Source: Leishmania mexicana MHOM/GT/2001/U1103 (Eukaryota > Euglenozoa > Kinetoplastea > Trypanosomatida > Trypanosomatidae). From it: DNA of 64,000 bases. The translations under genes and the position numbers were made by a program. The stretch's first letter is position 1; the number at the start of each line of letters is the position of its first letter. Below are positions 55,549 through 59,862 of this stretch, one piece after another. Location: positions 248,001 through 312,000 of the forward strand of contig NC_018313.1 of assembly GCF_000234665.1 (NCBI RefSeq), given 5' to 3'. Under the pieces are notes generated by a model. It was not told where the DNA came from. It worked only from the letters and a program-made list of their open reading frames with translations, and searched no databases.

Positions 55549-58500
55549 TCACACATCGTATTTCTTGTACTGGAGCGTCGTGAAGGAGAAAAGTAGCAGC
55601 ACACCAAGACAGACATGCATCCAAGCCCACTGGTGCCGGCTAAGGAAGGTGCCGGTGGCAGCGTCGTACACTTCGCCCATTATCTGCGCCGCCAGCTCAG
55701 CGCCCTCGCGGTTGGGACGGCGGTAGCGGCCGTCACTCTCGAAGAATACGTTGGCGATAAACGCCTCCTCCTGCTTCGGTTCCACAGCACGCTGCTGCTG
55801 GTATGTCGCAAGGGCGTCGCTGGCGCTCGTCAACGCCGCCGACGCAGCAAGCACACGCTCGCTGATGTCCACAAGCGCCTCTTGATGGTCTTGCATGCTG
55901 CCACTGTGCACCAGCTCCGCATCCGTGACAGAGTTGCCGGCGTCCTCAGCAGAAACCGTTGCCGTCATTGCTTGTAGCTCCTTGCATGCAGTCCGCCGCG
56001 CTTCCTCCAGCTGCGCTGCGCGTCCCTGGGCATCCGATACTTCCCGCTGCATCGTGGCGAACGAGCGCTGGGCGCGAGCAGTTGCGGTGTTGATCTCCGC
56101 CTTCTCATCCTCTACCTCTCCAAGCTGTGCGATGAGCTCACCAATGAACCTCTCCTTCTCCGAGGCGAGTTGCTGAGGGGGCTGGCGCGGCCGATCGGCC
56201 GCGATGGTAACACTCTCCGCAAGATCCTCGATCTTTTCCCGTATGGCTGTGACTGCCGCATGCCGCACCGCTTGCCGCTCTCGGGCAGCCGCCTCCGCCG
56301 ACTTCTGGGCCTCCAGCTCTGCCCTGCAGAAGTTTGTGGCCACCTCGGTTGCGGTCAGCTGCGCGCGCAAGGCCTCTACAAGGGCAGCATCCGCCTCGGC
56401 CGCACGCACGTGGGCGCGCTCAAAACCGTTCTTCCTGTAGTGCTCCACAGGGATCGCAGCACGTCTGGCGCCGTGCTGTTGCGGATACTCCATCTGCTTC
56501 CGCACGGATTCCATGTTTTCTAGCAGTCGAAGGCGTGTCTTCTCTTTCTCCGTTGCCTGCGCTTGAGCCCTCTCCAGCTCCTCGCGAAGGTGCCTGTGCT
56601 CTGCCTGAAGAGCTGCCTGTGCTGACGATGCCTCCCTCAGCTTCCGCTCCAGCTCCGCCACTTGAGCTGCGTGCTCCGCCGCTCGCCTCGCATCTGCCGC
56701 CGCCGTGAAATCTTGTTGGGTCTTCTCTTCTTTCTCCATGGGCTCCTCGCGCGGCTGCGCATCGGCCAGCCGATGCTTCATGGCGTCTAATTGCTGCCGA
56801 AGCCGCGTCTCGCGCGCTGCCGCCGCGGCTTGTGCCTCGTCGAGCTCCGTCTGGTGTCTTGTCCGTTCTCCCTCAAAGGCTGCGTGGGCAGCGCGCAGCT
56901 GACTCCCGAGATCTTCCAAGGTCTTCTCCGCCTGTATCGCCGCCAGGTCTGCCGCTGTGCGGGCTGCTTCGGCATCGGCCTTCACCTTCGCTGCCCGCTT
57001 TTCTGCCGAGACCAGATGAGCCTGCGCAGTCGCGAGTTGGTCCTCCGCGCGTTTGGCCTTCGCTTGCGTCTCTGCCAGCGACGCCTGGACGTGTCCGAGC
57101 TGAGCCGTGCGCTCCTCGAGCGCCTCCTGGAGGGTCAGGTCCGCGCGGACGTCGTCGTGAGTGCCCGCCTGACTCGACGTCTGCGCCACTGCCATTTTCT
57201 CCATGAACGCCTGCTTTTCCCTCTCGAAGGCATCGCGCAGCGACTCAGTCTCGCGGCGGGCCTCCGCCTCCGGCTGCTGCGCCGCCCGGATCTCGTCTTC
57301 CATCGACGCCAGACGCATCGCCTGATGCAGCTGACGTGTGCTTTCGTCGTCCAACGAGTCAGGTACACGCTGCCGCTGCGCGTACAGCGCCATGACCGTC
57401 GGGTACGCCTCCTTCTCAAGGGCGGCTTGCACGGCCTTGCTGCTGTCAGTGGAGGGGTGGCATACGGCGCACTGCACATGCAGGCCCCGGAGCACCCACG
57501 CGACGTCTGTCACAGCGCGGCTTGGCACGTGGCAGATCATGGCCACATCCTCCATAAAGGCTCGGCACAGCTCGTCAGGTGAGTCCCTCACCACCGTCTC
57601 CCATTCCTTCTCCGTGAAGGCTTTTGTATGCTGTGTGACAATGGTGGCGTGCGAGGAGCGTGCGCTTCCCGCTGTCGCGGATGACGGCGACAGCGGCGGC
57701 AGGGCCCGCGCAGGGCCATGAAGGGCTTCCGCAACAAACTGCTGCTGCGCCGTCGTGAGTTCGAACATGTCCCGTGCCGGTGTTGCCGTTCCGTTGTCAG
57801 GGGAGGTCTCACCAGGCTTCTCGCCCGTGCGCTCCTGCTGATGACCCAAGACACACAGGATGCTGCTGCGAAGAACGTAGGTGCGGCTCTGCAGAGCGCA
57901 TGGGTGCGGGCATATCCACTGAGTACCCGGAGGCACCATCACCGGGACCTGCTGCTGCTGCTGGGTGAGCAGCACCGCCGTAGGAGGGTGACTCGCAGCG
58001 GCCACGCCGCCCATCGTCATCTTCATGGCGCCGTCTGCCATCGCAGCAGCTGCGTCGGCTGCGGTGTGCGGCGCTGAGGCGCTTCCAGAGGGCACGGAGA
58101 TGGCAGTGACCGAGGTGCTCGACCGCCGCTGCGCGTCACCACCGATTGCCGGGGCCCCGTTGCTGCTCGCCATTGCCTCCACAGAGTCAGCCACCGCCGC
58201 GCGCAGCTGTACCGATGTCGACATGGGCGACTCCGCACCGCTGGCGGCGTGCGTCGATGGTCGGCGGGTACGCTGCGGACTCGTCGTCGCCGCTCCCTGC
58301 GACCCGGACGCTGGCAGGAGGACGTTTGTGAGAGGTGACGAAGGACGCTGAGACAATCCCTCGACGCCCGTAGGGCACGGGGTGAGTGTGCCGGAGCGCC
58401 GCTCCTGCAGCTGACGCGTCTGCTCGCGCATGAGGGCCTCGAGCTCCTCCTCGAGATGCCGCAGCTCCGCTGCCTCCGCCTCCATCTTTTCGCGGGCGAT

Positions 58501-59862
58501 GGCGAGCTCCTGGTTGCTCTCCTCCTTCTCCCTCATGAACTCTGCATGGGCACTTCCCGCCTCCATCAGCTGTAGCTGCCGTATCACCCACTCGTGGAAC
58601 TGGCCAAGGGCGTGGCTGCCTTTGAGCACATCGGCGTAAGAGAAGCGCGGGTTCGATATAAAATTCTTCTTCAGCTCCTGCACATCTGCCAGCGCGAGCT
58701 GCCCGTGGTGGAGGGACCCGACGTTCGATATAAAGGACGGACTGCGCATAGCCGTGACCACGTCGGTCCAGTTCTTCGCCGTCTCGCCGAGCACGCAGAG
58801 CACGGCATCCATCACATGCTTCACCACCACCGGTGGCAGTCGGTAGCCTTGAATTTCGTGCAGGTGCCGTTTATCGATGCGTTGCACCTTCTTCTGCGCC
58901 TCGCGCAGCTGCCGCTTCGCGTCTTCGAGGGACACCTGCACCCGCTTCTGGGCCGCTTGCAGATCGCGCTCGTTCCGACGCGCCGTCTGCATACCGCTAA
59001 GCATATTCGAGGCACGCTTGCGGAACTCGGCGAGCTTGTGCTCTATCTGCCGGGTCAACTCTGGGTTTATGCCATCGTCGTCGTCGCTGTCGACGACCAC
59101 GGCGGTGGCACTCTCCTCGCTGCCGCGGTGCAGGTCGTCGGCGCGGAGGTGGCTGTGCCCTCTGGACTCGGTCCTGAAGCCCAGCACGCGCGTGTACGCA
59201 TGCAAGAGCTCCCCGGCAAGTCGTCTGTCGTTTCCGTCGTCCTCGCCGCCGCAGGCGGCGCTCGTGCAGCGGCGGCTCGCTGCTGTGGTGGGGTAGACGC
59301 CAGCGTCACCGGCGCCTTCACCCCGTGCGAAGTGCTCGATTTCTTCGAGCTCCCTCTGCATGGCGTTGATCTCGGCCAGGCGAACGGCCCGCGCGACGCC
59401 GTGCTGCTCGGGTGAGGGGGAGGGGCTGTGGGGGCCACCTGACGGACTGGCGTGCCCAGCGTCTCCGTGTGCACCAGCCGTCGACGCCAGCGAGATCCAT
59501 GGCTGGATCAGCACCGTCTGGCACGCAGATGCCGGCACCAGCGGCGGGGTGGCCACAACCGCAGCACTTCTCTCCTTATCATCCGGAGCGCTGCCGTCGA
59601 CGCGGCTTGCATTCTGCGGCGTGGACTTCAGGAACTTTGGGTCATTCATGGAGTTGGTGCTTCTTCCCGCGGTCCGAGCGGCGCCCCCTTCCACGGTGTC
59701 GTCACCGGCGGAGGACGGGGAGGAGGGGAGCGCCAGAATGGACCCCACCCGCCACGATGCTGACCCTGCTGTTTCGTCGAGGAAGCATTCGTAGGCGACA
59801 ATGGCGCCCACCGTCAGCCCCGGGGAGGCTGCTGCGGCTTCACCCGCCCCCAGGCCTGCCAT
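55549..59862 (-). CDS. Tail-anchored coiled-coil protein with dynein-stalk-like module and FAZ1-type domain, 1437 aa
   Basis: Residues ~275-341 form a coiled coil. A helical bundle follows at 343-430 that reads like the microtubule-binding tip of dynein heavy chain: PPVVVKHVMDAVLCVL, a Trp (NWTD), PSFISNV, ELKKNFISNPRFSYADVLKG, a Ser/Ala/Leu helix and EWVIRQL. A returning coiled coil (~432-505) follows. The conserved Pro-Pro hinge is in place. No AAA+ motor is present. Residues ~747-810 (FTEKEWETVVRDSPDELCRA and on) resemble the SEA-like domain repeated in flagellum attachment zone proteins. A long coiled coil follows (~820-1300). The end is a single hydrophobic helix (~1412-1430: MHVCLGVLLLFSF) and a short polar tail, a C-terminal membrane anchor. 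The ATG at 59862 (MAGLGAGEAA) is the first in frame. A role linking membrane to microtubules is inferred. Confidence 0.85.
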   Translation of the reverse strand: MAGLGAGEAAAASPGLTVGAIVAYECFLDETAGSASWRVGSILALPSSPSSAGDDTVEGGAARTAGRSTNSMNDPKFLKSTPQNASRVDGSAPDDKERSAAVVATPPLVPASACQTVLIQPWISLASTAGAHGDAGHASPSGGPHSPSPSPEQHGVARAVRLAEINAMQRELEEIEHFARGEGAGDAGVYPTTAASRRCTSAACGGEDDGNDRRLAGELLHAYTRVLGFRTESRGHSHLRADDLHRGSEESATAVVVDSDDDDGINPELTRQIEHKLAEFRKRASNMLSGMQTARRNERDLQAAQKRVQVSLEDAKRQLREAQKKVQRIDKRHLHEIQGYRLPPVVVKHVMDAVLCVLGETAKNWTDVVTAMRSPSFISNVGSLHHGQLALADVQELKKNFISNPRFSYADVLKGSHALGQFHEWVIRQLQLMEAGSAHAEFMREKEESNQELAIAREKMEAEAAELRHLEEELEALMREQTRQLQERRSGTLTPCPTGVEGLSQRPSSPLTNVLLPASGSQGAATTSPQRTRRPSTHAASGAESPMSTSVQLRAAVADSVEAMASSNGAPAIGGDAQRRSSTSVTAISVPSGSASAPHTAADAAAAMADGAMKMTMGGVAAASHPPTAVLLTQQQQQVPVMVPPGTQWICPHPCALQSRTYVLRSSILCVLGHQQERTGEKPGETSPDNGTATPARDMFELTTAQQQFVAEALHGPARALPPLSPSSATAGSARSSHATIVTQHTKAFTEKEWETVVRDSPDELCRAFMEDVAMICHVPSRAVTDVAWVLRGLHVQCAVCHPSTDSSKAVQAALEKEAYPTVMALYAQRQRVPDSLDDESTRQLHQAMRLASMEDEIRAAQQPEAEARRETESLRDAFEREKQAFMEKMAVAQTSSQAGTHDDVRADLTLQEALEERTAQLGHVQASLAETQAKAKRAEDQLATAQAHLVSAEKRAAKVKADAEAARTAADLAAIQAEKTLEDLGSQLRAAHAAFEGERTRHQTELDEAQAAAAARETRLRQQLDAMKHRLADAQPREEPMEKEEKTQQDFTAAADARRAAEHAAQVAELERKLREASSAQAALQAEHRHLREELERAQAQATEKEKTRLRLLENMESVRKQMEYPQQHGARRAAIPVEHYRKNGFERAHVRAAEADAALVEALRAQLTATEVATNFCRAELEAQKSAEAAARERQAVRHAAVTAIREKIEDLAESVTIAADRPRQPPQQLASEKERFIGELIAQLGEVEDEKAEINTATARAQRSFATMQREVSDAQGRAAQLEEARRTACKELQAMTATVSAEDAGNSVTDAELVHSGSMQDHQEALVDISERVLAASAALTSASDALATYQQQRAVEPKQEEAFIANVFFESDGRYRRPNREGAELAAQIMGEVYDAATGTFLSRHQWAWMHVCLGVLLLFSFTTLQYKKYDV

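Follow-up and report, generated by a model that had tools for sequence, protein, structure and literature searches.

Gene and dynein-type stalk

The window analysed here comprises 64,000 nucleotides of Leishmania mexicana MHOM/GT/2001/U1103 (NCBI RefSeq assembly GCF_000234665.1, contig NC_018313.1, positions 248,001 to 312,000 of the forward strand). Its minus strand carries a gene at 55549..59862, with an ATG at 59862 and a stop at 55549, whose translation gives a product of 1437 amino acids with at least 12 homologues in a protein search. The original prediction, made from the letters of the window, had described this product as a protein in which a free-standing dynein stalk, with its microtubule-binding tip, is combined with a flagellum attachment zone (FAZ)-type domain and a C-terminal membrane helix, and its coordinates and strand for the gene are correct. 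Profile, predicted fold and phylogeny together support well that a dynein-type stalk and tip stands free of a motor in a FAZ-domain protein with a C-terminal hydrophobic helix.

The predicted order of coiled coil, hinge, six-helix tip and returning coiled coil is borne out by profile and fold over residues 267-489. The first stalk helix, CC1 (residues 267-327; 58882..59064, minus strand, as are all features of this gene), is modelled by AlphaFold2 with high confidence, and the Pfam MT match begins within it, at residue 300. The tip with its Pro-Pro hinge at 343-344 follows (residues 328-416; 58615..58881), and then the returning helix CC2 of the same model (residues 417-489; 58396..58614). All the landmarks named earlier are present: LPP at 342-344, VKHVMDAV at 347-354, W365, PSFISNV at 375-381, FISNPRFSYADVLKGS at 401-416 and EWVIRQL at 424-430.

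The profile comparison suggested with the original prediction gave a significant match to Pfam MT (PF12777; 29.4 bits, cut-off 24, E=5.5e-7) over residues 300-478 and profile positions 72-255 of 344. A Pfam scan of all 1437 residues at E up to 10 listed two families, MT and FAZ1_cons, and no AAA+ ring or linker family, in agreement with what had been claimed. The PF12777 model is marginal for this family: at E up to 1 it found no MT match in six of the seven relatives of the protein's own type (chr9 type) that were scanned, and among relatives it exceeded the cut-off in P0012 (40.0 bits), P0014 (25.6 bits) and P0031 (25.3 bits) and remained under it in a member on contig C26 (17.6 bits). At E up to 1, comparison of the whole protein with solved structures returned 42 distinct sequences, the best being 5ayh (1.5e-15), and the best stretch of every one of these matches lies inside residues 249-494. 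As residues 307-426, that is the tip with about 20 stalk residues, alone give 2e-15 to yeast dynein-1 (6kio_M) and 1.4e-14 to 6rzb_C, the match is independent of the coiled coil. Chance and coiled-coil bias were thus rejected as explanations: with only a little of the stalk, the tip reaches scores as good as those of the entire protein.

In the AlphaFold2 model, CC1 spans 267-327 and CC2 417-489, and the six helices of the tip lie between 331 and 415; the predicted local distance difference test score is 81-96 in ten-residue blocks from 271 to 490. The antiparallel stalk and six-helix tip, which a structural model had been expected to reveal, are therefore present, and the predicted fold superposes on solved microtubule-binding domains (MTBDs) at 2.5-2.6 A; the same six-helix tip between antiparallel stalk helices is predicted also in a paralogue. 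A dynein fragment or pseudogene was rejected as well, because the frame stays open over 1437 amino acids and other species show the same order of domains.

The protein shares with the stalk and MTBD of cytoplasmic dynein-1 (PF12777; 5ayh, 6kjo, 6rzb) the antiparallel stalk, the Pro-Pro hinge, the six-helix tip and Glu3122 (yeast numbering), but differs from it in having no detected AAA+ ring or linker and in the changed R3124 and R3152. The stalk is also shorter than that of dynein, with model arms of 61 and 73 residues and PF12777 positions 1-71 and 256-344 unmatched. The tip, counted from yeast 3116 to 3212, measures 95 or 97 residues in 32 motor-free sequences versus 93-117 in the 12 dyneins of this genome. 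Possible precedents for the fold are chains 7jtk_C (7jtk being radial spoke 1) and 9ya2_L (9ya2 being Toxoplasma intraconoidal microtubule 1); in the literature searched, no paper was found that brings FAP253 or the intraconoidal microtubule together with dynein and a microtubule-binding domain.

Other parts of the protein

Beta strands that we read as SH3-like, on the basis of a low-confidence model, precede the stalk at residues 16-47 (59722..59817) and resume after an insert at residues 117-127 (59482-59514); the modelled strands are 20-27, 35-44 and 117-121, and those at the N-terminus of the paralogue P0015 are 47-53, 60-69 and 75-83. Behind the stalk, the family alignment defines a conserved beta module with the pattern W ... 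LRSSIL ... LT-AQQ (residues 641-716; 57715..57942), which corresponds to no Pfam family. L664, S667, L702 and T703 are invariant in a 28-row alignment, the model gives low-confidence strands, and a divergent form can be recognised by eye in the C26 protein; this module is possibly a new domain.

The FAZ-type domain of the original prediction was confirmed as FAZ1_cons (PF23398; residues 740-830, 57373..57645), with 92.5 bits against a cut-off of 27.5 and E=1.6e-26. Like the SH3-like part and the beta module, it has low confidence in the model. The long coiled coil that had also been claimed is in part modelled, as a helix at 808-849 that closes the modelled part of the protein; beyond about residue 850 it is presumed from the character of the sequence (residues ~850-1395; 55678..57315). 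The C-terminal hydrophobic helix (residues 1412-1430; 55573..55629, by hydropathy), followed by the short basic tail QYKKYDV, is present as predicted, though borderline: of all 19-residue segments, the one from 1412 is the most hydrophobic, with a Kyte-Doolittle mean of 1.66.

A family in the genome and in other kinetoplastids

The original prediction had treated the protein as a one-off, which it is not. When the genome (32.0 Mb, 545 contigs) was searched with the PF12777 profile, 14 matches were obtained, namely 12 long frames of 4136 to 5702 amino acids that we take as dynein heavy chains, the 1437-residue protein and a 627-residue protein on contig C30 (P0014). With P0014 as query, a third clear motor-free member was found on C26 (E=1.1e-26). 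Its frame of 2834 amino acids (C26:701644-710145; L033, L034) has the motor-free dynein module at its start, followed by 23 of the 68 FAZ1_cons matches of the genome search. Some of these 23 matches are near-identical repeats.

Queries with the three clear members led to weaker relatives at C26:712k (L034), C33:302k (L037) and C33:969k (L038), L039 being a near-duplicate of L037 on C33, and the genome total is thus three clear motor-free members (the 1437-residue protein, C30 and C26) and three divergent ones (L034, L037 and L038). Pfam at E up to 1 listed MT for none of the divergent three. A profile of 22 motor-free tips scored L034 at 27.7, L037 at 26.2, L039 at 26.1 and L038 at 27.5 bits, versus 26.2, 18.7, 16.7 and 15.1 bits with a profile of dynein tips alone, the last of these under the inclusion threshold; L034 was aligned to positions 6-75 of the 105 of the tip profile only. 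A profile of the module from 21 sequences, controlled with 200 locally shuffled copies of each sequence and its reverse, gave 43.1 bits for L037 (best control 6.9; 80 controls passed the report limit), 42.6 for L034 (best control 7.4; 48 controls passed), 32.1 for L039 (best control 3.7) and a weaker 27.7 for L038 (best control 14.2). The L037 match covers positions 15-283 of 431, from the SH3-like strands through CC2, the beta module being recognised by eye only, and that of L038 covers positions 81-280, without the SH3-like part. FAZ1_cons is found in three of the five other motor-free members, the C26 giant, L034 (32.8 bits) and L037 (81.1 bits).

The C33:292000-302300 region (L037, L039) holds a FAZ1-like locus twice, with diverging 3' parts, a run of N and stops in two FAZ1_cons matches; the doubling is either a recent duplication or an assembly fault.

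Relatives in other species were counted as lower bounds, as those of T. brucei and T. cruzi may have been missed by the protein searches. There are at least 12 chr9-type relatives, the 11 with names coming from Leishmania, Leptomonas and Lotmaria, and at least 16 of the chr30 type, the named ones coming from Leishmania, Porcisia and Leptomonas, together with one Trypanosoma congolense protein (P0031). This protein of 1076 amino acids has the tip, a presumed coil, a C-terminal hydrophobic helix and, by eye, the beta-module motif; its end, MYKRYELN, resembles the LQYKKYDV of the 1437-residue protein, and as deposited it begins near the stalk, without the SH3-like part. It was not assigned as an orthologue of the chr9 protein because its tip groups with the C26 tip and not with the chr9 tip (95/84, with long branches).

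Within the chr9 family the tip is the best conserved long region. Mean identity to P0001, calculated over seven of the 12 homologue rows, is 72% in the tip, 60-61% in the stalk arms, 61% in the tail helix, 62% in the SH3-like part (absent in one row), 55% in the beta module, 50% in FAZ1_cons, 42% in the coil and 34% in the linker; the short strand at 117-127 reaches 86%. In P0013 (from Leptomonas pyrrhocoris), unrelated letters without a Pfam match occupy the place where FAZ1_cons should lie, as if the gene model were frame-shifted.

Kinship to dyneins

A tree of 36 tips was built from 22 of the 32 motor-free rows, the 12 dyneins of the genome and mouse and yeast dynein-1, with 200 bootstrap trees. 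All 22 motor-free tips fall on one side of a 99/96 branch (96% of the bootstrap trees), and they side with mouse and yeast dynein-1 and with the genome's own dyneins L009 and L010/L012, the latter pair being putative intraflagellar transport (IFT) dyneins, against the nine others (87/95). On these sequence comparisons the clear motor-free tips form one group, nearer to the cytoplasmic than to the axonemal dyneins. An axonemal origin is accordingly disfavoured, the tips joining the cytoplasmic and putative IFT dyneins, although the 87/95 branch is not starred and several branches are long. The same affinity could be taken to mean that the motor-less tip is a decoy or regulator that rivals cytoplasmic dynein for binding sites on the lattice close to the flagellar pocket; its fusion to FAZ1_cons, a coiled coil and a tail helix probably points to structure rather than to regulation, and we regard this explanation as very improbable.

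Loss of the stalk prolines

Universally conserved prolines bound the dynein MTBD (PMC6629372, accessible text), and motor and tip are coupled in dynein through a sliding registry (PMC7042235, accessible text). The dyneins of this genome have exactly one proline per arm within 50 residues of the tip (12/12), whereas both of these universal stalk prolines are missing in the clear motor-free rows, none of which has a proline within 50 residues on either side of the tip (32/32, or 27 after removal of near-copies at 90%). The hinge prolines are retained, the first in 32/32 and the second in 31/32 motor-free rows. The count leaves out the divergent L034, L037, L038 and L039; by eye, the first arm of L038 has a proline.

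Judged from sequence, the loss of the prolines would represent a release from the sliding-registry coupling of motor and tip. The existence of proline-less motor-free tips suggests in turn that the stalk prolines of dynein serve coupling and not binding, and the family thus offers dynein biology a natural experiment, a tip without ATPase from which exactly the two otherwise universal stalk prolines are gone.

The original prediction of a static membrane-to-microtubule tether is a sensible inference, and it is sharpened by the loss of both universal stalk prolines together with the lack of a motor. In mechanistic terms, the tip would bind the microtubule lattice without ATP control, and the stalk, free of prolines, would be a continuous rod that has given up the affinity-switching slide of its arms. 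The FAZ1_cons domain, together with the coiled coil, would link the protein into the FAZ at the neck of the flagellar pocket, and the tail helix would insert in the membrane facing the microtubule quartet, either the cell-body membrane or the FAZ-associated endoplasmic reticulum, so that the outcome would be a fixed hook from membrane to microtubule. We hold at even chances that the FAZ-type protein, with a motor-free stalk and tip of dynein descent and within a kinetoplastid family with several FAZ1_cons members, acts as an ATP-independent microtubule hook, here tied to a membrane.

Putative FAZ connection and C-terminal hydrophobic helix

The proposed link of the 1437-residue protein to the FAZ is drawn from the presence of FAZ1_cons and from the listing of PFAMB506, taken here as the same domain, in FAZ1, FAZ4, FAZ6, FAZ8 and FAZ10 (PMC4827413, accessible text). 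The protein resembles other FAZ1_cons proteins in having one FAZ1_cons domain and then a presumed coiled coil, and is unlike those of the FAZ in adding an N-terminal dynein stalk and a C-terminal hydrophobic helix. No identity with a named FAZ protein emerged. FAZ3 came into question through its gene on chromosome 11; the one paper found on Tb927.11.12530 gives 'No domains', and a literature search by presumed gene identifiers returned nothing.

In seven of the nine chr9-type proteins scanned, and also in T. congolense P0031, the C-terminal stretch is the most hydrophobic one; in the two remaining chr9-type proteins it ranks second. The membrane concerned could be another one, if the protein anchors the mitochondrial (kinetoplast-side) or another organelle membrane to microtubules. 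Several orthologues bear the NCBI name 'kinetoplast-associated protein-like', and a tail of moderate hydrophobicity whose helix is followed by basic residues would suit such a role. However, FAZ1_cons ties the protein to FAZ proteins, and the database name probably derives from coiled-coil similarity, so that an organelle anchor seems improbable to us.

Tubulin contacts and weighing of the proposed hook

At the microtubule-contact positions of yeast dynein (from the accessible text of PMC7042235), the chr9 protein keeps K3117 (K331), E3122 (E336), R3159 (R373) and, as K414, R3201, and loses R3124 (Q338) and R3152 (T366). Charge was counted at seven contact positions, acids and sub-groups by hand; yeast has seven basic residues there and mouse five. 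The 13 chr9-type rows average 2.85 basic and 0.92 acidic residues, close to the motor dyneins of the genome, and Glu3122 is kept in 32/32 clear motor-free rows.

Several observations weigh against a microtubule hook at the FAZ membrane. In the chr9-type rows, R3124 is Gln in 13/13, R3152 is not basic in 13/13 and K3116 is Asp in 12/13; in the chr30 type, Glu stands at 3117 in 17/17 and at 3201 in 14/17 rows. The basic and acidic means are 3.09/1.63 for the 32 motor-free rows versus 2.75/0.75 for the 12 own dyneins, and 3.41/2.24 for the 17 chr30-type rows. Binding is therefore possibly weak or changed, since contacts are altered and acids added. The FAZ1_cons paralogues L034 (27.7 bits) and L037 (26.2 bits) have degenerate tips, so that the tip fold can survive in degraded form. 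P0010 lacks FAZ1_cons and much of the coil, its tip (72%) and tail helix (77%) being kept in this single gene model, and Pfam listed no FAZ1_cons in L038 (583 amino acids of a 632-residue frame), P0014 or P0031. The helix is of moderate hydrophobicity, with a P0013 tip helix (1.73) exceeding its C-terminal one (1.55), and P0012 is without the YKKY tail. Finally, no localisation or binding data for the 1437-residue protein were found in the literature searched, and no LmxM.09 gene is named in the 2023 FAZ screen in Leishmania, as far as its main text (without supplementary tables) goes.

The altered contacts, the extra acids of the chr30 type, the degenerate tips of L034, L037 and L038 and the lack of binding data in that literature could also be accommodated if the tip fold had been kept as a scaffold, an interaction or spacing element of the FAZ filament that does not bind microtubules, which other proteins would contact. 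Yet a scaffold accounts poorly for the conservation of the tip, which no other long region in the chr9 family equals, for Glu3122 being kept in all the clear rows and for a chr9-type contact charge so near that of the genome's motor dyneins, and we consider it unlikely, though a serious alternative. From the sequences, competence for microtubule binding is plausible for the chr9 type and less plausible for the chr30 type.

To return to the hook, it is possible, and we propose it tentatively, that the FAZ1-type trypanosomatid proteins go back to a single capture of a dynein stalk. An ancestral module at the N-terminus, made up of SH3-like strands, the motor-free stalk and tip without the prolines and the beta module, would then have been duplicated to yield a set of fixed hooks on microtubules, of which some can still bind and one has a membrane anchor. 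Dynein tips bind the microtubule lattice in one orientation, and therefore such hooks, if they exist, would read microtubule polarity and could determine on which side of the microtubule quartet, and in which direction, the FAZ filament runs. To our knowledge, how this filament attaches to the quartet and to the membrane is an open question in trypanosomatid cell biology, and the family provides candidate proteins with a known microtubule-binding fold for tying it to both.

In NCBI, 'Microtubule-binding stalk of dynein motor family protein' is already the name of two orthologues, and 'Dynein heavy chain coiled coil stalk' is also in use. The searched literature, which was mostly without subscription papers and supplements, yielded no account of dynein tips without a motor in proteins of the FAZ type. 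What is new here is the family-wide module and the loss of the prolines, the domain name on some orthologues being already known.

Neighbouring genes

The next large frame beside the dynein-stalk gene (50682-54404, minus) encodes 1240 amino acids with several hydrophobic segments recognised by eye, and gave no Pfam match at E up to 0.01. An open frame of 5505 amino acids from a TTG (27714-44231, minus) would encode a giant protein, neither half of which has a Pfam match at E up to 0.01. No tandem repeats were found in 27714-59862 at score 150. At 49536-50285 (minus) lies a gene for a DUF4464 protein (PF14713, E=2.4e-81), a family that we take to be CFAP300/C11orf70, tied to dynein arm assembly; in a polycistronic genome, its position close to the dynein-stalk gene may be without significance. 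The gene at 46087-48324 (minus) encodes a prolyl oligopeptidase family protein (PF02897, PF00326), possibly oligopeptidase B.

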